Positions 8,862 to 64,000 of a stretch of 64,000 nucleotides of DNA are shown here, piece after piece; position 1 is the first letter of the stretch; each line of letters begins with the position of its first letter. The notes below the pieces were generated by a model. That model saw only the letters and a list, made by a program, of their open reading frames with translations. It was not told where the DNA came from and did no database searches. A program made the translations under genes and the position numbers. Source of the stretch: Daphnia pulex (lineage: Eukaryota > Arthropoda > Branchiopoda > Diplostraca > Daphniidae); contig NC_060026.1 in assembly GCF_021134715.1 (NCBI RefSeq), forward strand, positions 15,553,001 through 15,617,000, in the 5' to 3' direction.

Positions 8862-8898
8862 TATAAAAGACGGAGACATCCGGACGACCTTCCAGCCA
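8862..8898 (+). promoter_or_regulatory. TATA box of the first double-CUB gene
   Basis: TATAAAAG at 8862-8869 is followed by ACGGAGACATCCGGACGACC, a downstream string shared in part by most array promoters. A CCAGTC initiator-like site has its A near 8898. The ATG is 85 bases from the TATA box. Confidence 0.65.
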
Positions 8899-17180: not shown

Positions 17181-19441
17181 ATGTCAACAGTTTCTCTAAT
17201 TCTTTGCTTGGCTTTGATGCTACACGTCACTAGTGCTTGTGATGGACCAAACGAGCAGCAGCAATTAGCGGCTTCCAGACAGCAATCGGACGAGTATTTC
17301 GCAAATGCTTATGGATTCACTCCGGAAACGTGGAGCGCATTTTCCTACCAGCCGTCAAACCCTTACTACGCTCCTGGTAATTATCATTCATAAAAATTCG
17401 TCCAAAAATGTATAATCTGTCAATTACCTGTTGCGGTTTTCAGAATATTCCGGTCACTACGAAGGGCGAACGTCCATCAACAGCCCACAACCTATTAACG
17501 AGAATAATCCATTTAACAAATACTTTGCCAACAGTGAGTCAAATTAAATCATTAACTTTTGTCCTCACCTGTCAAAATGTCTAAATTATTTCCAATAGGT
17601 AATGAAGTAGAGCAGAGCCAAGCAGAAAATCGTTTCCTGCTCGGTGGTTTGGGTGCCAATTTGATCAACACGGGGATCTTCAACAACCGTTTCACTCCGG
17701 CCAATACGTGGAGGCCCTTCCAAAATCTGGCCAACAGGTTCCCGGCAGCCATTACTTTGAATCCCAACATTGGCGATCCGCTCACCACCTTCGACGCTTG
17801 TAAATCTCCCACCGGCGAAGATGGAATCTGCGTTCCGGGAAGCGTTTGCTCTTTATTCCGCGGTCGGCCTAGCGGCTCGTGCGTCTTTGGAAAAGTCTGC
17901 TGCATCAGTAAGTCCAACAATTAATGATTTGTGAACTTGTGAAATAAGAATTTTGTCTGGCCCACCTTGATGAACAGATACCATCACTACTTGCGGAGGT
18001 ACGGTTACCTTAAACAACACGTTCTGGCAATCTCCATCAACAGCCGTGAATTCGCCTTCCACTTGCGCGCTGACTGTCCGGATGGACACCAAATTGGTGG
18101 AACAAATAAAGAGGCCCATTTGCCAAGTCCGGTAAAGATTCCAAATGACATTGTAGCGACGCCGACGCCGAGATAACAAATGAACATTTTTTTCTTTTTA
18201 GTTTGGATTTCATTTCCTTCACGACCGCTCAGCCAACCGTCGGCACATGTTCAGACACTTTTGTGGTCGGCGGATCGGCTTCCTCGACGCCCGTCATTTG
18301 CGGTGACAACACCGGACAGCACAGTAAATAAAAGCTGGGAAAAGTCAAAGAATTAAAATTTTTAAAACATTTCGCATAAAATTTGTTTGGTTCATTTCAG
18401 TGTACCTTGACGTTCCTTCTTCCGCAATTACTCCAACCGATATCCAGCTGATGTTCAGTTTTGCAGCTGGCGTAACAGCTACCCGTTCGTGGAACATCAA
18501 AATCGCGATGCTTCCGTGCGGGGCTTCCTATCTCGGTAACTAATTCAAATTGAAAAGAATTAAGAATGAAAAGTGAAGGCTTATAAAATTGTGCATTCAT
18601 TGATCGTATTTTTCTCAGCTCCGGTGGATTGTCTCCAGTATTTCTCCTCGGCTACTGGAAAAGTCAAATCGTTCAACTGGCAGGACGTCACTAGCACCGC
18701 CACCCGCCAACTCAACAATCAAAATTACAACATTTGCTTCCGGACTGAACTGGTTTCCGGACAGGTATAAATAGAAATAATTTTTTGTTTCGTTATCATC
18801 CAGTTTCGTCAAGCAGCACGTAAAATATTCATTTACGTTTTTGAAATTTGGTTGATGCCAGAGAGCGACCCAGATGTGCGTTTCAGTTTGCCAGGTGATA
18901 TCCGGCGGTGACGCATTCCTCATCACCACCGTAGCTCCCCCTCCCGCTCCCGTTCAAAATCCCCCTCCCCCTGTCCCTCCCCAGCCTGATGCGGCTCAAG
19001 TAGCAGCTGCTGCCACTTATTCGGCCGTGGGTTCAACCAACGCTGCAGGAACTGTTGCCGTCTGCTTGTACGATTTCCTACTCATCGCCGGAGCTAGAGA
19101 TGCCACCGGAGTTGAAGCTGATCGCTACTGTGGTGGTGCATTAAATCCAGCACCCTTGGGAGGAGCTCCTGTTAACCCCCTGGCGGATGCTGTTCCTTTG
19201 GGTGGTTCACCTACTAGTGTCCAAGTTTGCTGTAAGTTAACTTGTAATTTTGTAATCAGCCGGAAAAGATATTAATATTTGATTGTTGCGTATAAACACA
19301 GCTCCAGTCAGGCCATTCAAGATGACGTTCCGGACGGACAGCACTGAAGCAGCAGTGGCCGTTAATGCACCGGCGGCTCCCGTTCCTGCAACAGCCGACA
19401 CCGGGAATACTGGATTCTGCCTTGATTACCAAGAGCGATAA
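17181..19441 (+). CDS. Secreted double-CUB protein with proline-rich loop (array gene 2)
   Basis: Exons: 17181-17376, 17444-17533, 17599-17907, 17978-18131, 18202-18323, 18401-18535, 18619-18764, 18862-19231, 19302-19441; 553 residues. The mature N-terminus (ACDGPNEQQQ, then QSDEYFANAYGF) is typical of the left subfamily. Exon 2 is the longest of the array, at 90 bases. In exon 8 the CUB 2 loop is not helical: it is a proline-rich run of alternating APPP/PPPV type at 18934-18993, followed by a short Ala stretch. A second proline/glycine stretch follows the CG motif near the end of exon 8. Exon 8 ends with T before the GT donor, giving TGC T|, while the others end TGC A|. An AATAAA lies at 19765-19770. 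Confidence 0.88.
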
Positions 19442-21022: not shown

Positions 21023-23279
21023 ATGTTCAAAATTGTTTTGTTAATTTCTATCGTTTTGACTTTCAGCCGAGCATGCGATGAAAACAACGGTGAAGAACAA
21101 CTAGCGATTGCTAGGCAACAATCAGACGAGTACTTTGCAAGTGCTTTCGGTTACACTCCTGATAGCTGGAACCATCTTTACTATCCTAACAGTCGTCTTC
21201 CATCAGGTAAATACTAACTAAGATTGAAAACAAATTTTAAAATTAATATCTTTACTTTTCTTCTGAATTTGTTAAGGATATTTCAATCAATATGAAGGCC
21301 GGACACCTTCTGGAAGTTCCATGGATGGGATCGATCCCTACAATACCCATTCAGTTAACGGTGAGTATATCTTTAATTATATTTCCTTCTTAAATTATGA
21401 AATCACCTTAATTATTTTTTGTGAAGGTGAGGTCAAGAGCGACCAGCAAGGAGTGGGTCGTTTGGCGCTGGGTGGTTTGGGCGCCAGTCTAATCAACACG
21501 GGCATATTTAACCATCGATTCACTCCAGCCAATACGTGGAGGCCCTTCTCCAATTTTGCCAACCGGATTCCCATTTCTTACAATCCCAATTTCGACAATC
21601 CCCTCGACACTTTCGATGCCTGCACATCCCCCAACGGTGATGCTGGAATTTGTGTTCCAGGATCCGTCTGTTCGTTATTCGGTGGACGTCCTAGCAGTTC
21701 CTGTGTCCTGGGAAAAGTCTGTTGCGTCAGTAAGTATAACATCAACTATTTAAGTCGTTTTGAATAAGAATTTTTAATGATTTTATGGATAACTTATTTC
21801 AGATACTATTTCCACTTGTGGCGGAACGGTAACCTTGAACAACACGTACTGGCAATCGCCGACCACTGCCGTTAGCGCCTCGTCCACCTGCGCCATAACC
21901 CTGAGACTGGACACTAAATACGTCGAGCAATTAAAAAAGCCCATTTGCCAAATTAGGTATTGGGTTTAATTTTCACTTAACTCCAGACGATCTAAAAACC
22001 AATTAGAGATTTTTCATTTTTGGCTTCTTAGACTGGACTTTGTGTCATTCACAACTGCCCAGCCGACTGCCGGAACTTGTGTCGACACATTTCAAGTGAG
22101 CGGAACGACCACCGTTGCACCTGTTATCTGTGGTGACAACGCCGGACAGCACAGTAAATAATCAAGTTAATAATTTGAAAATAATTAAATAAGGAATAAC
22201 TTATTTAAATATTCTAGTGTATCTCGACGTCCCATCGTCAGCTCTTACATCGACCGATGTCCAGCTCATGTTCAATTTCGGAGCTGCTACGACAACCCGT
22301 TCGTGGAACATCAAAATTGCGATGCTACCCTGTGGCGCCTCCTATCTCGGTAATAATTAAAAATATTCTTATCTATTTAGAAAAAATATTCTTATCTATT
22401 TAGAAAAAATATTCTTATCTATTTAGAAAAAATATTCTTATCTATTTAGAATATATGCTTTAAACATTATGCTTTAAACATATGCATTATTTAATTCTAA
22501 TTATTCATAGCTCCGACGGATTGTCTCCAATACTTCACTGCTGCTACCGGAAAAGTCAAATCGTTTAATTGGCAGGACGTCGCTAGTACAACCACCCGCC
22601 AGCTCAACAACCAAAAATACAACATTTGCTTCCGGACGGAACTCGTTTCCGGATCGGTAAAATGAATTATTTGTTTCGCCAAAAAAATGAATTGAATTAA
22701 TTCTTATGTATTACAGAGAGCGACTCAGATGTGCGTGTCAATTTGTACAGTCACGAACGGGGGCGACGCCTTTTACATCACGACTCCCGCCGCCGTCGTC
22801 ACTGGAGCGACTACTTTCCTGACTGTAGTCACCACTACCCCGGTAGCCACTTCGCAATCTAACGTGGGCACAACTGTCTCGAGCACGGGCAATCCAGCGT
22901 TTGTTGTTGCGACTTGCCTCTACGATTTCCTTCAAATCGCCAGCGGCCAAGACGCCACCACCGGAGTCGAGGCCGACCGTTTCTGCGGGAATCAGTTGAA
23001 CCCGGCAACAGGCGCCAATCTTTTAAATCCCGGTCTCACAACCAGTACGCAAGTGTGCAGTAAGTTTGAAAGATTTGAGTTGCTCCGAATCAAATTGAGA
23101 GCTTTAATTTAATGATTAATCAACAATTATTTGCAGCTTCGATCAGACCGTTCAGGATGACGTTCAAGACCGACGGTACCGAGGCGGCAATTTCAATTGC
23201 GACTCCGCCAACAGTTCCAGCCGTTGCTGGAGCTGACGCGGCTAACACGGGATTCTGCCTCGATTACCAAGAGAAATAG
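21023..23279 (+). CDS. Secreted double-CUB protein (array gene 3)
   Basis: Exons: 21023-21206, 21277-21360, 21427-21729, 21803-21956, 22032-22153, 22218-22349, 22511-22656, 22717-23059, 23137-23279; 536 residues. The signal peptide ends FSRA before CDENN. The six-Cys segment (DACTSP to VCCVS) and both CUB domains are intact. The CUB 2 loop is short and Thr/Val/Ala-rich, without heptads. Exon 2 is diverged and ends HSVNG, unlike the KYFA ending of its neighbours. Intron 6 is enlarged by a 23-base tandem repeat. Candidate AATAAA sites lie near 23296 and at 23541-23546. Confidence 0.88.
22359..22449 (+). repeat. 23-base tandem repeat in intron 6 of array gene 3
   Basis: Four near-perfect copies of an A6-TATTCTTATCTATTTAG unit lie between the exon 6 donor and the exon 7 acceptor. 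The copies are almost identical, so the expansion is recent and probably length-variable between individuals. Confidence 0.9.
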
Positions 23280-36289: not shown

Positions 36290-38689
36290 ATGTTGAAGCT
36301 TATTTTCTTTTTTACTGTTGTGCTGATGTTGCAAGTCAGCCGAGCTTGTGACGACAATAGTGAGGAAAGACAACTAGCGGCCGCCCGACAGCAATCCGAC
36401 GAGTATTTCGCTAATGCTTATGGGTACACTCCCAATCCTTGGGATTCTTCTTCTTACTATCAGCCGAACGCTCCAGGTAAATAATAAAAAAAATTCAAAA
36501 TGTTGCGGTTAAATATTTGAGAAAAGATATCGTTTACAATACCGACGTTTGTCTTGATACCTTTTTGTCCTTCTTGTTTCTAGAATATTTCAGTTCACTC
36601 CAGAGTCGAAGCCCCTTCACTAGAACAAATGTTTACCCATTCAACAAATATTTCGTGACTAGTGAGTATAATTTTGTGTTATTCTTCAGCTAGATTATAA
36701 GCAATTCAATGAAAACTGAACTAGAATCAATTATAGTTGCTAGACACTAACGCGCTGTAGCCTACATGTCTGATTTTAACAATTAAATTAAAACAGAAAA
36801 TAGTGAGGAAGAGAACAACGAAGCGGAAGGCCGTCTTGTTGGTGGTCTGGGTGCCAATTTGATCAACACGGGTCTATTCAACAACCGTTTCACTCCGGCC
36901 AATACGTGGAGGCCCTTCGCCAACCTCGCCAACAGGATCCCTATAACCGTGAATCCCAATTTTGATAATCCTCTTGCCACATTCGACGCTTGTACGGCCC
37001 CCAGCGGCGACGCAGGGATCTGTGCTCCAGGAAATATTTGTTCCTTATTCGGTGGACGGCCAAGTGGTTCCTGCATCCTCGGAAAAGTCTGTTGCATCAG
37101 TAAGTGCCAAAATGTTTTTTAAGAAAAATTTGATCGAATTGAATTTGTGGTAACATTTGTCATTTCTTAATAACAGACGCGATCACCACTTGTGGAGGTA
37201 CGGTTACCTTAAACAACACTTATTGGCAGTCTCCTTCGACGGCCGTTAGCGCTCCTTCCACCTGCGCGTTGACTGTTCGGATGGATACCAAATTGGTGGA
37301 ACAACTTGCGAAACCCATTTGCCAAATTCGGTAACTTTTAAATAGTGAAAACACTTCGTCCAAACTCATCGTCCGTATAAACCAATCAAGTATAAAGTAT
37401 TACCAGAATTGATGATGGTTGTCTGTTTGTATTTTTAGACTGGATTTCGTGTCCTTTACCATTGGTGGGCCTTCGACGACAGGAACAACAATCGGAACTT
37501 GCACGGATACTTTTACGGTTGGCGGATCGACTACTGCGGTTCCAACTATTTGTGGGGAGAATGCCGGGCAACACAGTAAGTTAAAGAAATTCAATCGACA
37601 AAATTCCTTTCATATTAATATAGAAATTCTTTCTTGTATATTAATTTATATACTCTTACAGTGTACATTGACGTCCCATCGTCAGGAATCACTCCCACCG
37701 ATGTCCAGTTGATGTTCAATTTTGCAGCTGGAACAACAGGCACCCGTGGATGGAACATCAAAATCGCTATGCTCCCATGTGGCGCCTCCTATCTTGGTGA
37801 CACATTTATTATTGAAAAGTTACTTGATTGGTCAATTCAGATTTTTATTATATTATTGTCTATTTTTTAGCTCCAGCGGATTGTCTTCAATATTTCACCG
37901 CTGCTACGGGAAGAGTCAGGTCATTTAATTGGCAAGACTCCGCTACTGCCCAGCAACTCAATAACCAGAACTACAACATTTGCTTCAGGACCGAACTCGT
38001 TACAGGATCGGTATGAATCAATTTCACATTTATTTTGGGTCAACGCATAATTATTGATTTTGTTTTTCAATTTGAAACTATTTTCAATGTTACAGAGAGC
38101 AACACAGATGTGTGTGTCAGTTTGCACAGTCACAAATGGGGGCGACGCTTTTTCCATAACCACAGTACCTGCTTCTGCAGCACCCGACGCGACCACCGCC
38201 GGCGTGCCTGCGTCTGCTGCTACTCTTTCTTCTATTGGCACTACGTTCTTTGATGCTACAGCACCAGCGCCTGGTGTTAGTTCGGCGACCTGTCTCTACG
38301 ATTTCCTTCTCATCTCCGGCGGAAGTGACGCCAACAATGCTCAAGCGGACCGTTTCTGTGGAAATGCGCTTAACCCAGCACCCATAGGTGTTCTCCCTGT
38401 TCCCGTTACTGCTGCTCCACCCCTAACAGTAGCTACAGCCGGTGGTTTGACTGCCAGTACTCAAGTGTGCAGTAAGTTGAACAACGCAATCCATTTATTC
38501 ATTATCGGTACTGCGATTAAAGTTAAATTGTTGTTTTATATCATGACAGCTTCAGCTAAGCCATTTAGGATGACCTACCAAACCGACGGCCAAGAAACCG
38601 CGGTGGTTGCGGTTCCGGCGAGGAATATCATTGGAGCGGCGGCCGATAATGCCAACACTGGATTCTGTCTGGACTACCAAGAGCGATAA
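36290..38689 (+). CDS. Secreted double-CUB protein (array gene 5)
   Basis: Exons: 36290-36476, 36584-36661, 36797-37099, 37177-37330, 37439-37575, 37662-37796, 37871-38010, 38096-38471, 38550-38689; 549 residues. It pairs with gene 7 (44843): both have a five-residue insertion in exon 5 (GPSTTGTTIG region), a two-residue shorter exon 7 and the same exon 9 ending. The CUB 2 loop is Ala/Ser/Pro-rich without heptads, and a second Pro/Val/Ala stretch lies between GNALNPA and QVC. The signal peptide ends VSRA before CDDNSEERQ. An AATAAA lies at 38898-38903. Confidence 0.88.
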
Positions 38690-40327: not shown

Positions 40328-42935
40328 ATGTTTAAACTGTATTTTCTTCTTTCCGTCGGTTTAATGTTAATACAAGTCAGCCGGGCTTGTGACGAGGAAA
40401 ATCAATTAGTCAGACATCAGCAATCCGACGAGTACTTGGCCAGCGCTTACGAATTCAATCCTAATCTAGAGATGTTTCACCCAATGGCTTATTACGAGTC
40501 AGGCGCTCGTGTTCCAGGTAATTGATTTGAAAAAAATCTGTCACAGATATGGGACTTATAAAGAAATTTTCTTTTACGCTTTATCTAGAGTTTTACGCCA
40601 GTCCTTATGAGGGACGAACCCCCTTCACTAATAGGCCCACGATCCAATCTTTCAAGAAACAATTGAGTGAGTAACCCTTTTATTTTATAGCCACATAGTC
40701 TTGTGTGTTAAATTCACTGAATCGAAAAATTCAGAAGGAAATTTCCAGTTATTGCATACGATTGTAATAAATGGGTTTTTAAAATGTTATGTATAATAGA
40801 TAATCGCCCAGAAGAAAATAACCAAGCGGAAGGCCGTTTCGTACTGGGTAGTTTAGGCGCCAATTTGATCAACACGGGTCTATTCAACAACCGTTTCACT
40901 CCGGCCAATACGTGGAGGCCCTTCCAAAATCTGGCCAATCGAATTCCAGTTTCTTACAATCCCAATTTTAATAACCGTCCGATCAACGCTTTCGACGCCT
41001 GCACGTCTTTTAGTGGAGACACTGGAATCTGCGCTCCTGGAAACATTTGCTCGTTATTCGGTGGCCGACCAAGTGGTTCTTGCGTCCTCGGAAAAGTCTG
41101 TTGCATCAGTAAGTGAGCCTACCAAAAATATTTTTTGAAAATTATATCCAACAGAATAATTGATGAGATGACATATTAAATTTTCCTTATTTTTAAATAG
41201 ACGCGATAACAACTTGTGGAGGTACGGTTACCCTGAACAACACGTACTGGCAATCACCATATACGGCTGTGAGTGCTCCGTCCACCTGCGCATTAACTGT
41301 CCGGATGGACACCAAACTCGTTGAACAATTTGCCAAACCCATTTGTCAAATTCGGTACTATGTGGATTAGTATTTTGTATTTTGTCAGACCCGATCAGAC
41401 TAAAAGAAAATCTTATATTTTCTTACATCGCTATATTATCTTAATTTCTTTTAGTTTGGACTTTGTTTCGTTCTCGACCACCCAGCCGACAGCCGGAACT
41501 TGCACGGATACGTTTACGGTTGGCGGATCGACTTCTTCCGTGCCAATTATTTGCGGTGACAACGCCGGGCAACACAGTAAGTCCAAAAATGAAATGAAAA
41601 GAATAAGGAGTATTTTTTAAATTTTATAGTATATTCTTTATATAGTGTACCTTGACGTCCCGTCATCGGCCACTACTTCTAATGATGTCCAGTTGATATT
41701 CAATTTTGCAACTGGAACGACAGCCACTCGCTCGTGGAACATCAAAATTGCTATGCTCCCTTGTGGCGCATCTTACCTCGGTAACTATAAGAAACGATTA
41801 AAAAGTTACTCAAGATAGTCAAGAATAATTGCTGATTAATTCTGCTTATTATTCCATTTTTTTCTAATTACTATCATAGCTCCAGCGGATTGTCTCCAGT
41901 ATTTCACCGCTGCTACGGGCAGAGTTCGCTCGTTCAACTGGCAAGACGTCGCTGGATCAGCAACTCGTCAACTCAACGATCAGAATTACAACATTTGCTT
42001 CCGGACTGAACTTGTACCGTCTCAGGTTTGTACCGTCCTTTCTTCTATTAGCTAAATTGACTCAATTTAATCAAATTACAACTCTAGCAATGAATTTAAA
42101 AAATTTTTATTCAGAGGGCGACTCAGATTTGTCTATCAGTTTGTACGGTGACTAGTGGTGGTGATCCTTTCTCCATTACCACGCCCACCAGCACTAAAGC
42201 CGCTAAATCCGCCACTGCCGTTGACAATGCCAAGGCGATCCTGGCGCCTCTCGAACTAGTTCTTGCCAATGAAGAGGCTGCGCTTCTGCTAGCAAAAGAA
42301 GATTTAAAGGTTAAAGATGATGCCGTTGCAAAAGCAGAAGCAGCGTACCTTATAGCCCAAAACGGAGGTGACCCCGAAGCTGTTATAGCTGCCGAAGCCG
42401 CCGTTATCGCAGCCAAAGACGAACAAGCTACAGCCACAACCACTGTCAATAATAAGAAAGAAGATGTCGCCACTGCTCAAATTCCCGTGACAGCTGCTCA
42501 AGCCGTACTGACGGCCGCGCAAATTACTGCCGCCAACGACGCATCAACTGCCGGTGCACTTTCCGGTGTGGGTTCGAGTGCAATCGTGAATGAAATTAAC
42601 ACGGCCACCTGCTTGTACGATTACCTTCTGATCGCCGGTGCCCGCGATTCTACGAATGTTGAAGCCGACCGATACTGCGGCAACGCCCTCAATCCAGCCG
42701 CGACTCCAGTTGCCGCCAGTGTCCCAGTGTGCAGTAAGTTACTATAAAGTAATTTGTTGCTATTAAAATTTAATCGATAACTTTGCATAACATCAAAATA
42801 GCTCCGATCAAGCTATTTAGGATGACGTATCAAACCGACAGCACAGAGGGGGAAGTGGCTGCAGGGACGGACATTCTTCCGGCACCAGCTGATACAGCAA
42901 ACACTGGATTTTGCCTCGATTATCAAGAGAAATAG
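40328..42935 (+). CDS. Secreted double-CUB protein with charged helical loop (array gene 6)
   Basis: Exons: 40328-40517, 40589-40666, 40800-41108, 41201-41354, 41455-41576, 41646-41780, 41880-42025, 42115-42733, 42802-42935; 628 residues. The N-terminal peptide is shorter and diverged (CDEENQLVRHQQSDEYLAS). Exon 8 has 206 codons because of a 142-residue insert at 42184-42609. Unlike the Thr/Gln heptads of the genes at 8947 and 49896, this insert is rich in Glu, Asp and Lys (LANEEAALLLAKEDLKVKDD), as in a classic coiled coil. It is interrupted by NGG near its centre. Exons 7-9 and the 3' flank closely resemble those of the gene at 49896. An AATAAA lies at 43213-43218. Confidence 0.88.
42184..42609 (+). 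repeat. Ala-rich charged heptad insert in CUB 2
   Basis: It encodes about 58 residues, then NGG at 42361-42369, then about 60 residues to the next CUB strand. Heptad spacing of L/V/A is visible but units are not identical at the DNA level, so it is much older or under different selection than the repeat at 51642-52451. Confidence 0.75.
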
Positions 42936-44239
42936 GCATCGCATGACAATCAAGAATTACCTTGGGGATGAGCTGTTTTATGGTTTTTCTTTAATTCAAA
43001 TTTAAATGTTTCAAATTTAAATTTGAACTTGGTAGATGGTAAATGGATTTTTATTTAGCTCTTCTTTTTTTGTGGCGCATTTCAGTTGATTTTAACTATA
43101 CCACGGTGCATTTTCTTGGACACACGCTATTTCAAAGTTTTGTACTTTTCATCTTTATACGACCTCTTATTTTCTGTACCAATTTTTTATAATGTATGAA
43201 AACGAACGTATTAATAAACATTTTTTTGGCAAGGTAAAAGAATCAGTTTAGAGATCATTTCTTTGATTTTATCGCGTATCCGAGTTTGTTGTCTATTTGA
43301 TTTTACTTAAATTTTTTACGTTGGACGTGATAAGAACAGTGGAACCGGTGGGGAACCGGCCAACTCGTGGATGTTTCCTTACTACTGCAGTCCCTAGCCT
43401 CGAGTGCTCATCATCTCTCGTATTGTTGCATGCTTCTGTGCGGTTCCCAGTATCTTGGAAACTATTTTTAAATTCTTTTCAAAAAAAGCCCCAACCCAAC
43501 TACTCTTATCCATAGCCTCCAAGAAATCCTCAAAATTCCCCGTCTTTTTTCTTTTGGCTCTGTCAGGTCATTTCTTTGCAAAGAAATGGCCACCACACTA
43601 CACCTTGCCTAATACTCAACGACTAAACTAAACGTTTATAGCCTCAGGATCTGTTTCGTTATACAGATGAATAAGAATAGATTTGGGTTTTCTTTTCACA
43701 ATATTATTAGGCTTGAAAGTTCCCGAATCTTTAGCCTTCGGCACTGACGTACATGGTGCTGTGTTAAAAGCATTTAATAATATTTTTTTTAATTTGTTCA
43801 ACCACTTAATACTTAATACTTAGTGAATGATTTCAAGGGCGGTGGTTAAAAGGGGGGGAAAAAAGTGTCGGCATCTTTAATGAAAATTTGTGAGGAAGTA
43901 CTCATAAGAAATGAATTTGGGATAGGCTACTTCTCGAGTTTAGCCACACACAAAAATTAACAATCATTTAACAAAATTATTTGATACTGAACAGCAAATA
44001 TTAGTGGATAACGCAAAGGGAATAAGTAAAAAAGAATTCGCCATTCATTTTTTATTTTTCCAGATTTATTAACTTGATTCTGATAACATTATCGCAAAGT
44101 CTATTCAAATCATTCAAACAGTCATCTTGGAAATCTCCACTCACGTACAGCAATTTTTTAAAAATTGGTTGACACATTTAATTTTAAGAAATATGGACAT
44201 TTTATGAAGTCTACATGGAGAAGATTCGAGAAGATTGTT
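42936..44239. other. Spacer between array genes 6 and 7
   Basis: The first 250 bases match the 3' flank of the gene at 49896 (GCAT-GC, CAATCA, TACCTTGG, then TTAGCTC and GTTGATT blocks). The rest is AT-rich DNA without a supported gene. Confidence 0.5.
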
Positions 44240-44842: not shown

Positions 44843-47155
44843 ATGTTGAAATTTACTTGCTTGTTGTTAATTGTCGCTTTGATGTTGCAAGTCAGCCGAG
44901 CTTGGGACGAAGGTAACAATAATGAAGAAGAACAACTAGCGGCCGCTCGACAACAATCCGACGAATACTTCGCAAATGCTTTCGGATACACTTCCAATCC
45001 TTGGGATTCCGCTTACTATCAGCCAAGCACTCCAGGTAATGATAATACAAATGTCATTAGATTTGTGCAAATATTTGAGTCTGTTAAGAGTTCCTTTACA
45101 AAAGATGTATCCTTACCTTTCTGTCCTTCGTGTTTGTAGAATATTTCGGTTCAATCCAGGGTCGAAATCCCGTAATCAGAACAAGTGTTCATCCATTCAG
45201 CAAGTACTTCGTCGCTAGTAAGTATATTTTTGTGTTCTTCGTTGAATTGTAAAAATTTGAGTATAAGCTCCTATATTTTATCACTTACCCCCTCTCTCAA
45301 AGATTTAGTTAAAACAGAAAACGATGAGGAAGAAAACAACCAAGCGGAAGGACGTCTTGGTGGTCTGGGTGCTAATTTGATCAACACGGGCCTCTTCAAC
45401 AATCGATTCACCCCCGCAAACACTTGGAGACCCTTTGCAAATTTAGCCAACCGGATTCCCATTTCTTACAACCCCAACTATGACAACCCGCTTGATACCT
45501 TCGACGCTTGTACGTCACCCAGTGGCGACGCCGGAATCTGTGCCCCAGGAAACATCTGCTCGTTATTCGGTGGACGGCCAAGCGGATCCTGCATCCTGGG
45601 AAAAGTCTGCTGCATTAGTAAGTATCGAAAAACATTTAAAAAAAAATAAAGGTCTAAGGTGACATTTGACGTTTCTAAACAAAAGACTCGATCAGCACTT
45701 GTGGAGGAACTGTTACCTTAAACAACACGTTCTGGCAATCTCCTTCCACTGCCGTGAGTGCTCCTTCCACTTGCGCGTTGACTGTCCGGATGGACACTAA
45801 ATTGGTGGAACAGTTGAAGAGGCCCATTTGCCAAATTCGGTAAGTGGATTTTCCCACTAAGCATTGATGCAACAAAAACAATTTCAGACAATGAAGAAGT
45901 TATTTAGGATATTCGTTTCTATTTTAGGCTGGATTTCGTATCCTTTACCATTGGGGGACCGTCAACAACAGGAACAACAATCGGAACTTGCACGGATACT
46001 TTTACGGTTGGTGGATCAACTACTACGGCACCAACTATTTGTGGAGTTAACTCTGGACAACACAGTAAGCTACAAAGAACGGATTAGAATATTCCAGAAG
46101 GTGTAGAATTTACACGTTTTTTATCAACTGTTAACGTTGTTCAGTGTACCTTGACATCCCGTCATCAGCCGTTACCCCGAGCAATGTTCAGCTCATGTTC
46201 AATTTTGCAGCTGGAACAACAACCACTCGCGGATGGAATATAAAAATCGCTATGCTCCCTTGTGGTGCTAGATATCTCGGTAATAGATTTCTCTTATTTT
46301 CAAAAGTTCAGATGTTAAATTTATAGATTATTAATTATTTTACTTTTCCTATAGCTCCGACGGATTGCCTTCAATATTTCACAGCTTCTACGGGCAGAGT
46401 CAAGTCATTCAATTGGCAAGACGCCGCAGGTGCCCTGCAACTCAACAATCAAAACTACAACATTTGCTTCCGGACGGAACTGGTTTCCTCACAGGTATGC
46501 TAATAATTGTTGGAATCAATCAATCAATAAATAAACCATTCATTGTTTTAATTATTGCAGAGAGCAACCCAAATGTGCGTCTCAGTTTGTACTGGACTCA
46601 CGATTGGCGACGCTTTTTCTATAACCACGGTAGCTCCCATTGCCGCTGCCGACGTAGGCAGTGCCACTGTAACTGCCTTCGTCAATTCTCTTTCTGCTGT
46701 GGGTACAACGTTTACCAATAATGGAGTTACTACTGCCGTTTGTCTGTACGATTTCCTGCTCATCGCTGGTGGAAGAGACGCAAATAATGTCGAGCAAGAT
46801 CGTTACTGCGGTAATGCACTGAATCCAGTCCCCATCAATACACCTGCTACTGCTGCAGCGGCAGCGGCAGTGGTCCCTGCTTTGAACCCTGCTTTCGCTG
46901 GTCCAGCAGCCGGTGGACTGCCCAACAGTGTACAAGTGTGCAGTAAGTTTTCCAATGGCTCATATTCTTAATTACGCAATCTATTCAACTCATATTACAT
47001 TGAATATCGTCACAGCTTCCATCAGACCATTTAGGATGACATACCGAACCGATAGTCAAGAAACGACAGTGCCTGCGGTTGTCGCGTCCAATACGATTGG
47101 AGCGGGTCCCGATACTGGAAATACTGGATTCTGTCTCGACTATCAAGAACGATAG
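44843..47155 (+). CDS. Secreted double-CUB protein lacking the first conserved Cys (array gene 7)
   Basis: Exons: 44843-45035, 45140-45217, 45318-45617, 45686-45839, 45928-46064, 46145-46279, 46355-46494, 46561-46942, 47016-47155; 552 residues. It is the sister of gene 5 by the exon 5 insertion and short exon 7. Right after the signal peptide, where the other genes have AC, this one reads AW (TGG at 44903-44905, one base from TGT). That Cys is therefore absent, while the six exon 3 cysteines are kept. The CUB 2 loop is short and Val/Ala/Thr-rich. A long Ala/Val/Pro stretch follows GNALNP in exon 8. An AATAAA lies at 47560-47565. Confidence 0.88.
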
Positions 47156-48524: not shown

Positions 48525-48925
48525 TCAATGTTCAGCTGGGATGTTTAATTTTGCCGCTGGCACAACAACCACTCGCGGATGGAACATCAAAATCGCTATG
48601 CTCCCTTGTGGCGCTAGATATCTCGGTTCTCTTCTTAAGGTTCAGTTGTACTATTTTTAGATTACTAATTATTTTCCTTTTTCCTATATATGTGTAGCTC
48701 CGGTGGATTGCCTCCTATATTTCACCGCTTCTACGGGAAGGGTCAAATCATTCAATTGGCAAGACGCCACAGGTGCCCTCCAACTCAACAATCAAAACTA
48801 CAACATTTGCTTCCGGACGGAACTGGTTTCATCGCAGGTTTGCATAACTTGGCATAATTGTTTGAATCAATTGAAATTTAAAACTTGTCGCAGAGAGCAA
48901 CCGAAATATGCGTATGAATTCTCTC
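48525..48925 (+). pseudogene. Double-CUB gene fragment (part of exon 6, exon 7, start of exon 8)
   Basis: It begins inside exon 6 (CAATGTTCAGCT, then the FNFAAGTTTTRGWNIKI sequence) directly at the edge of the repeat. It has a complete exon 7 at 48698-48837 (PVDCLLYFTASTGRVKSF, DATGALQLNNQ) and an exon 8 start at 48894 that dissolves after RATEICV. The exon 6 donor has become GTTCTC. Residues match gene 7 best (TTRGWN, GARYL, GALQLNN), so the source was a gene 7-like copy. It has no promoter, signal peptide or stop exon of its own. Confidence 0.85.
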
Positions 48926-49766: not shown

Positions 49767-49799
49767 TATAAAAGACACGCCGGTTCAACTTTGTTTTCA
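49767..49799 (+). promoter_or_regulatory. TATA box and initiator of array gene 8
   Basis: TATAAAAG at 49767-49774, then ACACGCCGGTTCAACTTTG and TTTTCAGATTC with the initiator A at 49799, 32 bases down. The same arrangement and spacing occur before the genes at 55060 and 62945. Confidence 0.7.
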
Positions 49800-49895: not shown

Positions 49896-52792
49896 ATGGC
49901 CGGAGCAATTGAAATCTTTTTGCCTTTCACTTTAATGTGTACTGCCATTTGGGCTTGTGAAGACGGCCAAGTCGACCACCTGACGGCGAGGCAAAGTTTG
50001 GATGAGCAACTGCAGGCCAATTCTTACCCCGCCAATCCGTGGGTGTTTCCTTACTACTACAACATCCAGCCACGATTGCCATTTGCAGGTAAAATGTACA
50101 GAATACTTTTATTGAAGCCACTTTTCTTAACTTTTCAATGATATTTTTCTTTTATTTAAAGGGTATGCTGATGCGGCCCGGATACCTTTTTACCGAAAGT
50201 CACCAGGCTATTTCGCCAAAAGTGAGTAACAAAAATACGTCTATTACTAAGTTCACCGAATGTTAACTTAATGTTATTGTAAGTTGAACTTATGTTAGCC
50301 TACTAAAGTTAACTGTTAAATTAATAATGAACTTTGCATTTGAAAAGGAAATCATTTCTTATCATTTAGTTGATGTCAATGACGGCTATAGACAAGAAGA
50401 TCGTTTAGGTTTTGGCAATTTGGGTGCCAATCTGTTCAGCAGTCTATTCACCCTACCAACCCGACCCTTTAGGCCGTTCGCCAACCTCGTCGGCAGGATG
50501 GATGCCTGTACCTGTACGTCATCCAGTGGCGACGCCGGAATCTGTACATCAGCTTTGGCCTGTTCCTTACTTTCTAGAAAGCCTAGCGGTTCCTGTAATC
50601 TTGGCAGAGTCTGCTGCGTTGGTAAGTCTATTTACCAATTAATTTTCATTTTCAAATCCATTTAATTTTGTAATCAAATGTTTAAAATTCAAACATATTC
50701 ATATTATAACAGACGTACTTGCCACTTGTGGGGGTACGGTTACTCTGAACAACACTTACTGGCAATCTCCCTCTACTCCCGTTAGTGCTCCTTCCACCTG
50801 CGCGTTGACTGTCCGGCTGGACAGTACACTGGCGGAACAAGCCTTGCCTATTTGCCAAATTCGGTATGCGATCGAAATCATCTTTATTTTACACAGCAGA
50901 TGGGACCACAGATTAATACAATATTCTCTTTTTTTTTATAGGTTGGACTTTGTTTCGTTCACGACCGCCCAGCCAACAGCCGGAACCTGCACGGACACCT
51001 TCCAAGTTAGCGGAGCAACGACTGTAGCTCCAACCATTTGCGGCAATAATGACGGGCAACACAGTAAGCAAAATCAAATATGCATTCCATCTAAACCAAT
51101 AAATATTAATGAACTTGTTTTTATGTGCTTAAAACAAATTTCAGTGTACCTCGACGTCCCTTCGTCCGCCAGTACTCCTACTGACGTTCGACTCACTTTT
51201 AATTTTGCTGCTGGAATGACCACTCGTTCGTGGAAAATAAAAATTGCATTGCTTCCTTGTGGTACCACATACCTCGGTAAGAATAAGATCCAAGATATCC
51301 TTTTAAAAATCGACTCACAAATAACTTCTACTATTTCATATTTAATGTATCACAGCTCCGACAGATTGTCTCCAATACTTTTCTGCAGCTTCCGGGAGGG
51401 TCAAGTCGTTCAACTGGCAGGATGTCGCCGGAACGGCAACTCGTCAACTCAACAATCAAGATTACAACATTTGTTTCCGGACGGAACTTGTGTCGTCTCA
51501 AGTTTGTATCATTCATCGCACATCAGTCAATTTAATCGCAGGATTTCAACAAATTTATTAATTTTTATTCAGAGGGCGACCCAAATGTGTTTGTCAATTT
51601 GTGCCGTGTCTAACGGTGGTGACGCATTTTCTATTACCACGCCCACCAGCACCGATGCCGCTGCTGCCACTGCTGCCGTCGTCACAGCTACAACGAACCT
51701 GGCCAAAGCCCAAACGACGTTAACCAATGCCCAAGCTACTCTTGCCACAGCACAAACCACTCTTGCGGATGCCCAAACTGCCCTTACAAACGCCCAAAAC
51801 AACATAGCACCCACACAGGCTGCTCTTACCGCTGCACAAGACGCCCTTGCCACTGCCCAGGACGCAGTCCCAGTGGCCGAAACGGCACTTACCGATGCAC
51901 AGGGTGCTCTCACCACCGCCGAAACTGACCTTGCCACTGCACAAGGTACCCTTACAGATGCACGAACGGCTCTTAACAAGGCATACATCGATCTCGCCGC
52001 TGCCATGGCTGCTATCCCACCGGATTATGCTGCCATTGATGTTGCCCGAGCTGCCCTCACCACTGCCCAAACCGCCATCATTGACGCTCTAGCGGTAGTC
52101 GACGGTGCTCAAACAGTTGCCAATACTGCCCAAACCAACGTCAATAATGCACAGACCACTCTCACTAACAAACAAACCGCGGTGACGGATGCTCAAACTG
52201 CAGTCGACACTGCTCAACTCGCTGCCGTTAATGCCCAAACTGCAGTCACTGACGCCCAAACTGCCGTCGATACTGCCCAAACAAACGTCAACAACGCACC
52301 AGCCGCCGTCACCGATGCTCAAACTGCCGTGACAACCGCTCAAGCCGCACTCACGGCCGCTCAAACTGCTGCCGCCAATGCCGTCGCTTCTGCGGCCGCA
52401 CTTTCCGGTGTGGGCACAAGTGCCATTGTGAACGGAGTCAACACGGCCACTTGCCTCTACGATTTCCTCCTTATCTCCAGTGCCCAGGATTCTACGAATG
52501 TTGAAGCGGACCGATACTGCGGCAACGCCCTCAATCCAGCCACAACTCCAATTGCCACCAGTGTTCCAGTGTGCAGTAAGTTCAAATCAATTTAATAGAT
52601 AAGTTAGTTTTGATGAAAATAAAACTCATGAACTAAACAACATTTAATATTAATTTAGCTCCAATCAAGCCATTCAGAATGACATTTCAAACCGACAACA
52701 CTGAAGAAGCGGTGGCTGCAGGTGCGAACATTCTTCCGGCACCAGCCGATACAGCAAACACTGGATTTTGCCTCGATTATCAAGAGAAATGA
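49896..52792 (+). CDS. Secreted double-CUB protein with giant heptad hairpin (array gene 8)
   Basis: Exons: 49896-50088, 50162-50221, 50370-50621, 50713-50863, 50942-51063, 51145-51276, 51356-51501, 51573-52575, 52659-52792; 730 residues, the largest of the array. Exons 1-5 are of the right-hand type (ACEDGQVDHLTARQ, short exon 3 of 252 bases, FQVSGATTVAP). Exons 7-9 and the 3' flank are of gene 6 type (DVAG-ATRQLN, TTPTSTDAA, PAPADTANTGFCLDYQEK). Exon 8 has 334 codons owing to a 270-residue heptad insert. The exon 3 knot has a seventh cysteine (DACTCTSS), odd for a secreted domain. Only one ATG (MAGAIEIF) is available here, whereas the sisters have two in a row. Exon 2 is short and keeps only part of the usual YEGRTP region. 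Confidence 0.88.
51642..52451 (+). repeat. Alanine-rich heptad (21-base) repeat in CUB 2 of array gene 8
   Basis: About 29 heptads of the form xxLxxAQ or xxVxxAQ (TTLTNAQ, TTLADAQ, TALTNAQ, TAVTDAQ, TAVDTAQ, TNVNNAQ). Leu/Val and Ala alternate at 3-4 spacing, as in the a and d positions of a coiled coil with small residues. The helix is broken at IPPDY (52012-52027), leaving about 126 residues before and 131 after. The second arm has more near-identical DNA units (51 to 63-base blocks around 52190-52330) than the first, so it was probably the more recently expanded. No cysteine or aromatic residue except two Tyr near the turn. Confidence 0.9.
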
Positions 52793-55059: not shown

Positions 55060-57161
55060 ATGATGGCACGAGCAATTGAAATCTTTTTGTCTTTCAGTTT
55101 GATTTTGACTACCATCTGGGCTTGTAAGGATGGCCAAGTCGACCAACTGACAGCAAGGCAAGGGTTGGATGAGTTTCTGAATGCAAATTCTTACCCCACC
55201 AACCCGTGGGTGTTTCCTTACAACTACAACATCCAACCACGATTGCCATTTGCAGGTAAAGTCGGCAGAATTCTAATTACATATTTTTTCCTGTTTTCAT
55301 TTCATTGTTGTTTTCAAGTACATGTTTAAATTTAAATTTTTTTTTTTATAATTAAAAGGGTATGCCAATACATACGAAGGACGAACCCCCTCCAACAGAA
55401 AGCCACCAGGATATTTCGCAAAGGGTGAGTTACATCATTTATTGATAGCCTTCTTTTTATTTTGTGGAATTGAAATAAATTTTAATGCCTGCCTAAATGA
55501 CTTGAAAATTTTAAAAAATAATAATAAAACTTGTTTTGTTCCAGTTGATGCCGATTACTACAACGACCAAGAAGGTCGTTTTGGGTTGAGTGGTTTGGGT
55601 GCCAATCTGCTAAACATTGGCCTGTTCAACAACCGGTTCAATCCAAGATGGAGACCATTCGCCAACCTTGCCAGCAGCTTGGAAGCCTGTACGTCACCCA
55701 GTGGCGACGCCGGAATCTGTACCCCAGGATCGGTCTGTTCCTTATTTTCTGGACGGCCTAGCGGCTCCTGTACCCAGGGAAAAGTCTGCTGCGTCAGTAA
55801 GTCTAAAAAGTCTACTTTGTTTTCATTTGACAATGTTTCACTCATTATCGATCGTATTTCTAACAGATGTAGTCAACAGTTGTGGAGGTACGGTGACTTT
55901 GAACAACACGTACTGGCAATCTTCCTCTACTCCGGTTAATGCCCCTTCCACTTGCGTAATGACGGTTCGCTTGGACAATAAACTCGTGGAACAAGCGGCG
56001 CCTATTTGTCAAATTCGGTATGAAATCGTTTTTTTAACACTAGATGAGACTGTAGAACCAATAAACAAATTATTGTTGTAGGCTGGACTTTGTTTCGTTC
56101 GCGATCGCCCAGCCAACAGCCGGAACCTGCACGGACACCTTCCAAGTTGGTGGAGCAACGACTGTGGCTCCTACCATTTGTGGTACCAATGCCGGGCAAC
56201 ACAGTAAGCAAAATACAAAACACGCTTTCGAAATATAGAATTAATAGCGCAATAGAAATTTGATTCTGTTTTTTTTCTCTAAATAATTTCAGTGTATCTC
56301 GATGTTCCATCATCTGCTACTTCTCCTACCGATGTCCAACTCATTTTCAATTTCGCTGGATCAGCTACTCGTTCATGGAACATCAAAATAGCGATGCTAC
56401 CCTGTGGGGCCTCTTACCTAGGTATCGTTTTCTACTGAATAGTAAAATTTAGTAATATAATTACAATTGAAAGTGTAATGTACATTTCTTGGATTTCCCA
56501 TGTCATTTTCTAGCACCTCCGGATTGTCTCCAATATTTCACTACCGGAGCAGGTCAAGTCAAATCATTCAACTGGCAAGACTCCGATGCTGCCCAGCAAC
56601 TTAATAACCAAAATTACAACATTTGCTTCAGGACTGAGCTTGTTGCATCAGGAGCGGTACGAATAAAATTCTTTCTCAAAAATTAAACATGTTGCAATTG
56701 TGATTTAAAATCTGTTTAAATATCAAAGAGAGCGACCCAGCTGTGCGTGTCAACTTGTACGACGACAACCACCGGTGTTGGCTTTTTGTTAACTGGTGAC
56801 AACAGTGGCGTTGCTAATTTCGGTACAGGTGACGACACATGTACCTACGATTTCCTTGCCATTCCCGGTGGACAGGATCAAGCGGACCCCTTCGCTTTCT
56901 ACGATCGTTACTGTGGCGGTACTATTGGAAAAATTTGCAGTGAGTTAAATTTTTTCAAATAACCCAACTAAATTTTTTTAAATTTTACTAAACGTTAAAT
57001 ATTCTATTGTAGCCAAAATCAGTCCCTTTAGAATGAGTTTTGGAACTGACGGCACTGAGGAGAAAGTTACTCCTAATCCGGTTACAATTTCGCTACCCGC
57101 TACTGCTACAATTGATAAGGCCAATACCGGATTCTGCCTTACTTATCAAGAACAAGCATAA
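55060..57161 (+). CDS. Compact secreted double-CUB protein without loop insert (array gene 9)
   Basis: Exons: 55060-55255, 55359-55424, 55545-55796, 55867-56017, 56082-56203, 56293-56421, 56514-56656, 56729-56939, 57013-57161; 472 residues, the smallest complete member. Two ATG codons stand in a row; the first is used here. The mature start is ACKDGQVDQLTARQGLDEF, right-hand type. Exon 8 has only 70 codons: after CTTTTTGVGFLLT a dozen residues lead straight to CTYDFLAI. It therefore shows the bare CUB 2 loop against which the inserts of other genes can be measured. Exon 9 is diverged, and the protein ends TYQEQA instead of DYQEK/R. The nearest AATAAA is at 57613-57618. Confidence 0.88.
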
Positions 57162-58963: not shown

Positions 58964-60887
58964 ATGGTTCGTTTGACAGCCTTTTTGGGTTTGATGTTGA
59001 TTTTGAGCTGCGGTACAATTTGTTCCTCTGCTCTTACCCCATTTTCCTTGGAAGACAAACTGCAAGAATTGGAAGTGAGACTAGAAGCCAAAATTGAGGC
59101 TAAAAATGCTCAACTTGAAGAAAAGGTGACACAACTGGAGGCGCAACTCGAACTAAATGTAAGTCCACTGTTTGGTTTAATTCAGAGTTTCACTGTGGGT
59201 AAACACTTTCGCTTTTCCATGACAGAATGAATTAAGACAGGATTTGACATTGAAAGTAATTCAATTAGAGGCAAAAAATGTCCAACTTGAAGTCAAAATG
59301 CAGGACCAAGAAAGAATTTTAACTTCCCTGTTGGAAGCGGCTAAACTTCCGGTTTCCACTTATTCAAAATTATTTCCAGTTGAAAAAGAAATTTCAATGC
59401 GATCAAGTGGAAGAAGCGGAATCCCAAGGACGTGCAGAGAACTTCAAGCGGCCAATCCTTCACTTCCATCCGGAATGAACTGGATCGATCCGGACGGGCA
59501 AGGTGTCGGCGATAACCCAATTTACGTTTACTGCGATATGACATCAGGTAAAATAGTTAAAAATAGCAAAATTTTCAATGTAAAACTGATTCTTTCCATA
59601 AAAACAGGATCGACCTCAATTGTACACGATAGTGAATCTTCTTTAAATGTGGGCCACTGCGCCGAGGCTGGGTGCTATTCACGTTCCATCAACTACAATT
59701 CCTCAATGGGACAAATCAAAGCTTTGATTGAATTATCCACCGAATGCCATCAGTCGATTAGAGTCGGTTTCATTTGATCAGTTTAATTCTTGGCGTTTTT
59801 ATTTTTAATTCTATTATTAGTACGATTGCTATTACACCCCGTTCGAGTTAAATGGAGTCGCCTATTCCTGGTGGAATGACAGAGAAGGAAATGCGCAATA
59901 CTTTTGGGCCGGAAGTAACACGGACGGAGTTAACACCTGCCAGTGCGGAATCGATGCCAATTGCGTCGATCCTGCTGCGAAATGCAACTGTGACACGGTT
60001 TCACCAATTCAATTAGTCGACGACGGTTTGTTATTACGATTCCCACATTTATAGAATTAAAATGAATAAAATTAATTTCGTTTGCAGGTGTCATTACCGA
60101 CAAAAATGTTCTGCCCATCACTCGTTTGAATTTCGGACGAACTCAACTGGAAACTTCATCCGGCGTCCACACGCTTGGCCGACTCGTGTGCACCGGATCA
60201 GTGACTTTGACTGGACTGCCAAAGTCGTGCCAAGATTTGTGGTTGATTGGCCACACCCTGAACGGATTTTATTTCGTCATGGGATCGGCGAAAATGGAAT
60301 CCGTTTACTGCGATTTCACTAAACTCCCTGACGATGCGGGTAAATGTTTCAGATTCTCACGAATTATTCAGTTTCAATTATTAGTTTTTAAATTCTTTAA
60401 TTGATGAAAAGGTTTTCAGAAATGGATCGGATTCGCCGACGTCAAATCGGCGCCCGTCCATTTCTACGTCCAGAGAAATTCTAAATTTAACATAACTAAC
60501 ACTCCGATCCCGTTCGATTTGGCGCAGGTGAACGAGGGAAACGCCATGGATTTGACATCCGGGAAATTTACGGCACCGCGACCGGGAATTTATTTTTTCT
60601 CTTTCGCGGGACTGGCGTTTCTTTCGGGACCTTACGCTGATTTTTATTCTTCTCTTTACTTGAACGGGAATCTAATCGGGAGTAGTCATGTTCACGAGAA
60701 TAACGGCCCCGTTAATCAATATAATCCTGTGACCCTCCAGTCGACGTTGAACTTGAAAAAAGGCGATCAACTCTGGGTGACGTTTTATTATTATTCTAAT
60801 ACATACTCGTTTTTGTATGACGACAATTACCACTACACCCATTTCACGGGTTTCATGTTGGAGGAAGAAATTGTGTCGGCCCTTTGA
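58964..60887 (+). CDS. Secreted coiled-coil, fibrinogen-like and C1q domain protein
   Basis: Exons: 58964-59158, 59226-59547, 59608-59762, 59821-60025, 60088-60339, 60412-60887; 534 residues. Residues 1-22 form a signal peptide. About 28-105 is a two-part coiled coil (QLEEKVTQLEAQLE, then QLEVKMQDQERIL) split by intron 1. About 130-375 is a fibrinogen-like region of the contactin-associated-protein type: CRELQAANP, IYVYCDM, SWWNDREGNAQYFWAGS, CQCGIDANC, CNCD, LPITRLNFG. About 382-534 is a C1q domain: GKFTAPRPGIYFFSF, LYLNGNLIG, LKKGDQLWV, FTGFML. The coiled coil suggests trimers, as in other C1q proteins. Such proteins bind surfaces or glycans in known families; the ligand here is unknown. 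The acceptor of exon 6 was chosen at GAAAAG because the alternative TTTTCAG breaks the C1q frame. It interrupts the CUB array. Confidence 0.85.
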
Positions 60888-62944: not shown

Positions 62945-64000
62945 ATGATGGCCCGAGAAATTGAAATCTTTTTGTCTTTAACTTTGATTTGTACTACCAT
63001 CTGGGCTTGTAAGGATGGCCAAGTCGACCAACTGACAGCCAGGCAAGGGTTGGATGGTCTTTTGAATGAAAATTCTTACCCCACCAACTCGTGGGTGTTT
63101 CCTTACTACTACAACATCCAGCCGCAAGTGCCATTTGCAGGTAAAATTCGCAGAATTGTAATAACATTTTTCTTTAGTTTTAAATGAAACACATTGTGCA
63201 ATAAGTGACAAATAATTAAAATTTTTCTCAAATCAAAAGGATATGCCAACTCGTACGAAGGGCGAATCCCCTTCAACAGAAAGCCACCAGGCTATTTCGC
63301 AAATGGTGAGTAACCTTGCAATTGTCTTGTAAAGTGAACTTTTTATAACTTTTCTTTTGTTTAAGAGTTTCAAGCTAAATGCAATGAAATTTGTAACAAT
63401 GATTGAATTGATAGTTAAAACAAAAAATATTGTTTATTACAGTCAATGCCGATTACTACAACAGCCAAGAAGGTCGTTTAGGTTTCGGTAATTTGGGTGC
63501 CAATCTGTTCAACACGGGCCTGCTCAGCAATTTATTTACACCGTTGACGCCGTTGGCCAACCTCATCAACAGGGTGGTGGAAGCCTGTACGTCACCCAGT
63601 GGCGAAGCCGGAGTGTGTTCAACAGCGTCGGCCTGTTCCTCAATTTCTGGACGACCAAGCGGTTCCTGTACTCAGGGCAGAGTCTGCTGCGTCAGTAAGT
63701 CAATCAATTCTTCACCTGTTATTTAAATGAAGATGTTTCAAAATTCCAACATTTTATCCCCAATAGATGTAGTCAACGCTTGTGGTAACAACGCCACGCG
63801 CAACAACACTTACTGGCAATCTCCCTTTACGTCCGTGAGTTCTCCTTGCTCGTTGACCGTTCACTTGGACAATAAACTCGCGCAACAAGCGTCGCCTATT
63901 TGCCAAATTCGGTACGAATTCTCATTATTTAAGTTATTTATTTTTACACGTCACCTGAAATAACAGGTTAAACGAATACTTTTTCTTATAGGTTGGACTT
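62945..64000 (+). CDS. Secreted double-CUB protein, 5' part only (array gene 10)
   Basis: Exons seen: 62945-63140, 63240-63305, 63443-63694, 63767-63911 and 63992 to the window edge (9 bases of exon 5). It is the closest relative of array gene 9: two ATG codons, ACKDGQVDQLTARQGLDG, NRKPPGYFAN, DYYNSQEGRLGF. Exon 4 is two residues shorter than in gene 9 and its CUB 1 start reads ACGNNATRNNTYW, so the usual CGGTVTLNN motif is altered. The knot has the standard six cysteines (ACTSPSGEAGVC to VCCVS). CUB 2 and the length of its loop lie outside the window. Confidence 0.85.

Follow-up and report, generated by a model that had tools for sequence, protein, structure and literature searches.

The window analysed here is a 64,000-nucleotide stretch of the Daphnia pulex genome (contig NC_060026.1, positions 15,553,001 to 15,617,000 of the forward strand), and the element in question is a long Ala-rich heptad repeat inserted into a CUB-like domain encoded by one member of a tandem gene array. 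A tblastn search of the 64-kb window with the exons of this gene revealed nine plus-strand members carrying exons 3–9, which we labelled gA to gI by position; the host of the repeat is the eighth, gH, as an earlier note made from the sequence alone had stated. A tenth copy, gJ, starts at 62948 and leaves the window, and broken copies are also present. No match to exons 1 and 2 was obtained for gB, gC and gF at E 1 in the same search.

The gH gene codes, in order, for a signal-peptide-like start, a Cys-rich segment, a first CUB-like domain (exons 4–6) and a second CUB-like domain (exons 7–9), and we infer that its product is secreted. Exon 1 (49896–50088), which shares 80% identity with that of gI, carries the start codon and a hydrophobic signal-peptide-like N terminus; its end and the signal peptide were both judged by eye. 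Exons 3–6 with their introns (50369–51278), placed by tblastn with paralogues, encode the Cys-rich segment and the first CUB-like domain. The second domain begins in exon 7 (51355–51501), where gH is 70.8–87.2% identical to the eight other array genes, and ends in exon 9 (52658–52789), both located by tblastn. Exon 8 (51573–52574), an open frame with flanks kept in nine members, contains the insert together with the CUB strands on either side. All these features lie on the plus strand.

A heptad repeat in exon 8 of gH

The insert (51645–52400, plus strand) comprises 252 residues bounded by TTP and LSGVG, in frame with both flanks, and is followed by a 17-residue tail partly common to gF and gA. 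The strand F-S-I-T is thereby separated from the motif C-x-Y-D by 271 residues in all, in line with the in-frame expansion of about 270 residues described before. Identity at lag 7 within the insert was 0.413 compared to a mean of 0.176 in 2000 shuffles (standard deviation 0.022, maximum 0.256), and 36 heptads, turn included, share one register. Position a is L/I/V/M in 31 of these 36 heptads and L/I/V/M/A in all of them, position e is Q/E in 25 and position g is A/I/L/V/M in 23. Ala occupies position d in 32 of the 36 heptads and so stands at one heptad position throughout, as in the Alacoil, which we take to be an antiparallel pair with Ala at every seventh residue and close helix spacing. 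Small or hydrophobic residues at both a and d agree with the register of a coiled-coil hairpin. Exon 8 contains 20 copies of the strict pattern [LIVM]xxAQ, whereas 2000 shuffles of residues 28–277 gave 1.3 on average and never more than 7. The figure of about 29 heptads given by the earlier note therefore hinges on definition (36 by register, 20 by the strict pattern); the repeat itself is confirmed.

The repeat is broken once, at AIPPDY, where the break had already been noticed; the arms, formerly put at 126 and 131 residues, measure 125 and 127 by sequence. Leu occupies position a in 13 of 15 units of arm 1, and Val in 9 of 16 units of arm 2. At the protein level, the units are more alike within the arms (0.43 and 0.47) than between them (0.39; 0/1000 permutations). 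Arms that differ in consensus yet match in length are expected under a pairing constraint.

Composition alone, about 33% Ala and 20% Thr, could point to a flexible or O-glycosylated low-complexity linker without fixed structure, and five of the six non-hairpin loops of the array, 33–45 residues long, consist of 45–60% Ala, Pro and Thr. The strict 7-residue register, the single break, the 2% Pro content and the confidently predicted helices described below make such a linker improbable for gH. A type I antifreeze-like helix binding ice, which would likewise be long and rich in Ala and Thr, is scarcely credible: the repeat that we take to define type I antifreeze protein has 11 residues, and identity at lag 11 was 0.189, far below the lag-7 value and no higher than at lags 10 or 4.

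In a sequence search of the PDB, the repeat matched 7 sequences, all weakly (E 0.19–0.79) and most of them coiled coils, lamin and tropomyosin among them. Weak matches to coiled-coil families of Pfam, such as FliJ, whose score of 20.2 bits lies below the cut-off of 28.4, were rejected as compositional. No relatives outside the window were confirmed among 25 pattern matches in a prokaryote collection or 3 in a viral one. Mirror-image kinks (Pro 21 and 25 residues from the base in gF, Gly 101 and 99 in gH) were also considered and left unused, their rough chance rate being too high.

Predicted structure

AlphaFold2 was run on exon 8 alone with an alignment of eight paralogues. The gH model contains helices at exon-8 residues 27–76, 78–146 and 152–277 with a predicted local distance difference test score (pLDDT) of about 95 and a predicted template modelling score (pTM) of 0.61; mean pLDDT over the five models was 70–79. 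Arm 1 is thus predicted as a helix of 120 residues (51651–52010; residues 27–146, with a one-residue break at 77) and arm 2 as a helix of 126 residues (52026–52403; residues 152–277), both on the plus strand with mostly Leu (arm 1) or Val (arm 2) at position a and Ala at d. The turn between them (52011–52025, plus strand) corresponds to the non-helical residues 147–151 within AIPPDY. At a rise of 1.5 Å per residue, 120–126 residues give a predicted rod of 18–19 nm, so that the 15–18 nm estimated previously was slightly low. For gF, helices were predicted at residues 27–84 and 87–150 (58 and 64 residues; pLDDT about 98, pTM 0.61).

Foldseek aligned the gH model over 233–254 columns with known hairpins: Smc 5nnv_D (TMq 0.51, 249 columns), Smc 5xg2 (TMq 0.43, 233 columns in two segments, 345–468 and 694–814) and chemoreceptor 2ch7_A (TMq 0.51, 254 columns). 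The gF model fitted VIPP1 7o3w at 2.0 Å and Smc5/6 8i21_A at 1.9 Å, each over 121 columns. Both genes are thus predicted to encode helices in a hairpin-like arrangement, and it is in these models that two helices and a tight turn fold back. Structure prediction, a check that the earlier note had proposed for exons 7–9, gave a helical hairpin-like exon 8, not a disordered one, and together with Foldseek it supports the proposal that the two arms fold back on each other from the CUB-like loop, with gF doing the same on shorter arms.

Inserts of three lengths at one site

Hairpin-like inserts at the same site are present in three of the nine array genes, with about 5, 8 and 17 heptads per arm in gA, gF and gH, respectively. 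The hairpin of gF, the sixth array gene (42187–42558, plus strand; sequence and AlphaFold2), has 124 residues with arms of 61 and 63 and the turn NGGDP; the hairpin-like insert of gA, the first gene (10606–10848, plus strand; sequence), has 81 residues with arms of 38 and 43 and the turn NGGN. The repeat in its frame and register therefore comes in three length classes at one site, and this similar device at two other lengths is new relative to the earlier note. From strand to C-x-Y-D, the loops measure 100 residues in gA, 45 in gB, 44 in gC, 33 in gD, 43 in gE, 143 in gF, 38 in gG, 271 in gH and 15 in gI. Lag-7 identity of the loops was reached by 0/1000 shuffles in gA and gH and had p 0.022 in gF. 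The hydrophobic phase of the arms, scored against 5000 shuffles, gave 0.026 and 0.0026 in gF and 0/5000 for both arms of gH. The gB loop, the only one of the six others with a low lag-7 value (p 0.039), is Pro-rich and was not counted as a hairpin.

The arms are near-equal in all three members (38/43, 61/63 and 125/127). Multiplying the uniform-break probabilities gave 7.4e-5, a figure that is only illustrative, since the three genes share ancestry, the models cover just gH and gF, and the test is post hoc. When the gH and gF C-terminal arms were compared, the base-to-base offset was best, with 29 of 63 residues identical versus 8 to 23 at other in-phase offsets, suggesting that the base was inherited from a common ancestor and that growth took place farther out. 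For the N-terminal arm, the same offset (19 of 61) was tied with another.

Identity of the domain and position of the insert

The Pfam CUB family (PF00431) matched the full gH protein at profile positions 51–81 with 19.4 bits, below its gathering threshold of 21.4; with the insert cut out the score was 13.6 bits. Four other members with their own loops behaved similarly, three scoring 13.6–14.8 bits and one giving no match, and four of the nine second domains matched at E <0.1 (best 0.00012). The nine second domains were also combined into a profile, leaving out the gH, gF and gA hairpins and five other loops; it matched the CUB domain of PCPE-1 at E 0.0017 and those of neuropilin at 0.013–0.072, over the core from C-x-Y-D to CG. 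The pattern C-x-Y-D-x-L-x-I … CG thus aligns to solved CUB domains, with modest E-values; its core residues are invariant in 9/9 second domains, YD included. In gH this core (C-x-Y-D … DRYCG) and the strand 3′ of the insert lie at 52443–52541 on the plus strand.

In the profile alignment, F-S-I-T … C-L-Y-D sits on F-D-L-E-L-H-P-A-C-R-Y-D of PCPE-1, with the Glu of FDLE aligned to Thr in the array. The insert is therefore located between the strand ending in FDLE and the strand starting with C-x-Y-D, which we take to be beta-4 and beta-5. This fits the earlier placement between two strands of the second CUB domain, although the CUB match itself is weaker than had been implied. In the C1s CUB domain, Glu45, Tyr52, Asp53 and Asp98 are reported to have roles in calcium and ligand binding (PMC4222235). 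We infer from the alignment that FDLE and YD correspond to C1s Glu45 and Tyr52-Asp53, in which case the rod would arise at the edge of the domain that binds ligand.

The first domain yielded no Pfam family for either of the two sequences tried, and one weak, unrelated match in the PDB (ethylene receptor, E 0.46); comparison of the first- and second-domain profiles gave no useful match (hhalign Prob 0.1, E 0.52). Its CUB-like character is our assumption, made by resemblance. Since the first domain lacks such support and the second falls below the Pfam cut-off, we call both CUB-like.

Integrity of exon 8 and constraint on the repeat units

The repeat might also be spliced out, in whole or in part. 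Splice sites were scored with a matrix built from 36 array introns (60–161 bases, mean 25% GC), which were also those scored. No donor 5′ of 51760 scored above −0.76, compared to 2.3 for the weakest true donor, that of gH exon 7 as placed here, so no plausible intron removes the whole insert. Splicing out of the repeat, which the earlier note had named as a refutation, is thus not indicated by the donors 5′ of the insert. The insert has a GC content of 0.57 versus 0.18–0.31 in gH introns. The position of the exon-7 donor at the bottom of the array's range leaves some room for splicing, as do six in-frame pairs of internal sites (donors 51946, 52105 and 52408; acceptors 52539 and 52569) that outscore the weakest true sites and would take out arm 2 or the tail. 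These pairs delimit 132–624 bases of 54–56% GC, unlike array introns, and each would delete the C-x-Y-D strand too. Loss of the repeat from the transcript is, in our estimation, very improbable.

The 21-base period, and array loops ranging from 15 to 271 residues, could also reflect neutral expansion of a minisatellite that the loop merely tolerates. Silent differences among units were high (pooled proportion pS 0.64–0.72, with only the arm 2 core lower at 0.43), so the units look old; such divergence is not what a neutral expansion of this kind would suggest. In arm 1, the ratio of nonsynonymous to silent differences (pN/pS) was 0.32 at positions a, d and e (bootstrap 0.16–0.49) compared to 0.75 elsewhere (0.65–0.91). 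In arm 2 it was 0.56 in the core (0.20–1.02) and 0.55 at other positions (0.46–0.66), with no contrast, which is what a functionless repeat would show. Pooling both arms gave 0.40 (0.25–0.60) versus 0.65 (0.54–0.75), with overlapping intervals. The core is thus visibly protected in one arm only. This protection, the diverged silent sites and the near-equal arms of three members leave a neutral origin with little probability.

Possible exchange between array genes

Trees of exons 3–6 and 3–7 joined gH with gI (ultrafast bootstrap 100), and both data sets rejected a group of the three hairpin genes (approximately unbiased (AU) test, p 0.0007 and 0.0001). In contrast, trees of the exon 8–9 flanks, from which the insert was excluded, recovered the hairpin group (71) with gF next to gH (86), although gH and gI as sisters were not rejected there (AU p 0.11). 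FastTree protein trees agreed, with 0.958 for gH with gI and 0.926 for the hairpin group against the rest; exon 7 alone joined gF and gH at 0.741. At the DNA level, gH and gF are 0.89 and 0.87 identical in the last two blocks. Identity between gH and gI is 90% in exon 5 (50943–51062 versus 56083–56202) and 67–72% in the exon 8–9 blocks, a contrast that we read as a sign of mosaic evolution. On these comparisons, exchange of a 3′ cassette (exons 8–9) between members is the simplest reading. Loss of the hairpin in some members instead is possible, because gH and gI as sisters are not rejected in the 3′ exons and because gH does not particularly resemble gF in intron 7, intron 8 or the 3′ flank: identity over these three segments is 0.79, 0.77 and 0.69 with gF and 0.79, 0.83 and 0.70 with gE.

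Other features of the array

A core-promoter-like element of gH, the exact motif TATAAAAG, is located at 49767–49774 on the plus strand, and its context is near-identical upstream of gI (54945) and gJ (62831). TATAAAAGA occurs at 8862, 44736, 49767, 54945 and 62831, about 100–210 bases 5′ of the first exon match. Given its presence before each of them, gA, gG, gH, gI and gJ may share a TATA-type promoter. A further copy at 35220 lies more than 1 kb ahead of gE.

Two of the broken copies, both on the plus strand, are a remnant of exons 6–7 at 48544–48837, in the gG–gH interval, and a remnant at 43329–43406, 3′ of gF, that resembles exon 1 and contains a stop. Between exons 6 and 7 of gC, a 23-base AT-rich unit is repeated in four perfect copies (22359–22451). 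A second variable site, found in only some members and differing in length, is a Pro/Ala-rich stretch near the end of exon 8 (gB 19156–19215, gE 38381–38473, gG 46831–46944). The gI–gJ interval contains open frames at 59223–59777 and 60408–60887 (plus strand), perhaps one gene, that match a fibrillar collagen C-terminal domain (E 9.5e-10) and a C1q domain (E 2.2e-17). Vertebrate C1r/C1s CUB domains bind C1q, which makes a C1q-type gene within a CUB-like array a curious neighbor.

Discussion

Taken together, the repeat and the models make it likely that the loop joining beta-4 and beta-5 in a CUB-like domain grew into an antiparallel coiled coil of two helices that pair with each other, with a length of about 18 nm in gH. 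The helices would pair through Ala at d and Leu or Val at a, often with Ala at g as well. Both arm ends would return to the loop, and the domain could therefore keep its fold while carrying the rod.

Several observations weigh against this interpretation. The Pfam score of the host domain is below threshold. The flanks of exon 8 mostly have pLDDT <50, leaving the junction with the CUB-like domain without modelled structure. AlphaFold2 can over-call helix for Ala-rich repeats, and the arms contain single Pro or Gly residues besides their abundant Thr. No Foldseek match in the PDB reached E ≤0.001 for the gH or the gF model, many of the matches listed fit poorly (some with root-mean-square deviations >20 Å), and the arm–arm contacts, that is, the folding back itself, are read from the resemblance to hairpins in this search. 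In gA, the evidence for heptads from hydrophobic phase is modest (p 0.027 and 0.035). The absence of a core contrast in arm 2 and the internal splice pairs with true-site scores point the same way.

The repeat might instead be helical but paired between molecules, forming a network or a multimer like that of silk. Higher-order bundles have been linked to Ala-rich heptads in which g is Ala, and position g in gH is small or hydrophobic in nearly two-thirds of heptads. Honeybee silk is reported to form a tetramer of 24 heptads and 24.3 nm whose core residues are small (PMC12284834). The single-chain models, which resemble hairpins, and the similar lengths of the two arms in all three members favor pairing within the chain, and we regard an arrangement held together solely between molecules as unlikely. 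The two arrangements partly overlap, since a hairpin could itself dimerize. Ala at g is reported to favor higher-order bundles (PMC12284834), and two hairpins may therefore pair.

On the self-paired hairpin, we tentatively suggest that the rod could serve as a length-graded spacer or stalk at a C1s-type ligand edge, possibly with two hairpins pairing as a four-helix bundle, which would form through the Ala-rich g/a/d face. In evolution, an Ala-rich loop would have become a short hairpin; gain of heptads in both arms under the pairing constraint would have lengthened it; and exons 8–9 would have been swapped among array members. More speculatively still, the array might be a set of extracellular rulers, with no rod or rods of about 5, 8 or 17 heptads at the ligand edge, in which selection keeps the arms equal even as they lengthen by different repeats, exons 8–9 are exchanged, and reach or oligomer spacing is combinatorial, perhaps in immunity or matrix. 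A two-CUB gene of D. magna was reportedly differentially expressed 4 h after exposure to Pasteuria, with a quantitative PCR p of 0.071, near significance (PMC4551569), and D. pulex genes lowered by predator cues are reported to be enriched for CUB, C1q, fibrinogen and collagen domains (PMC4514973); these need not be the array genes.

If the hairpin is real, a compact beta-sandwich has had one of its loops extended into a rod of nanometre scale. The two other lengths in the array would then let one follow, stepwise, how a coiled-coil hairpin grows within a folded domain, and near-equal arms made of different repeats would be a readable trace of selection on pairing. Literature searches, with most subscription journals outside their reach, found no CUB domain carrying an insert in the form of a helical hairpin or an Ala-rich coiled coil among the papers listed, judged by title or the start of the abstract; nor was such a protein found in the Daphnia CUB-domain and Ala-rich coiled-coil literature of the same coverage.

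Comparison with known systems

The closest known systems include the CUB domains of PCPE-1, neuropilin and C1s. Those of PCPE-1 and neuropilin resemble the array second domains over the core from C-x-Y-D to CG, but in PCPE-1 four residues separate FDLE from CRYD, where gH has its 271. The hairpins of SMC proteins, VIPP1 and chemoreceptors, among the best fold matches in the PDB, show the same helix–turn–helix return. They are intracellular proteins, and the matches listed have 7–17% identity and no Ala/Thr/Gln repeats in a loop of an extracellular-type domain. A Foldseek search of a viral library gave 18 matches at E ≤0.001; the highest TMq among the 50 viral matches listed belonged to a phage GDSL-type protein, A0A8S5VVD8 (TMq 0.65, 3.4 Å, 257 columns). 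These phage tail-fibre and GDSL-lipase-type comparators are themselves predicted models, and the resemblance of their repeats is probably convergent. Honeybee silk reportedly shares with gH an Ala-rich heptad region (about 210 residues), an antiparallel arrangement and small core residues; unlike gH, it is built from four separate chains as a tetramer and is not an insert in another domain (PMC12284834).
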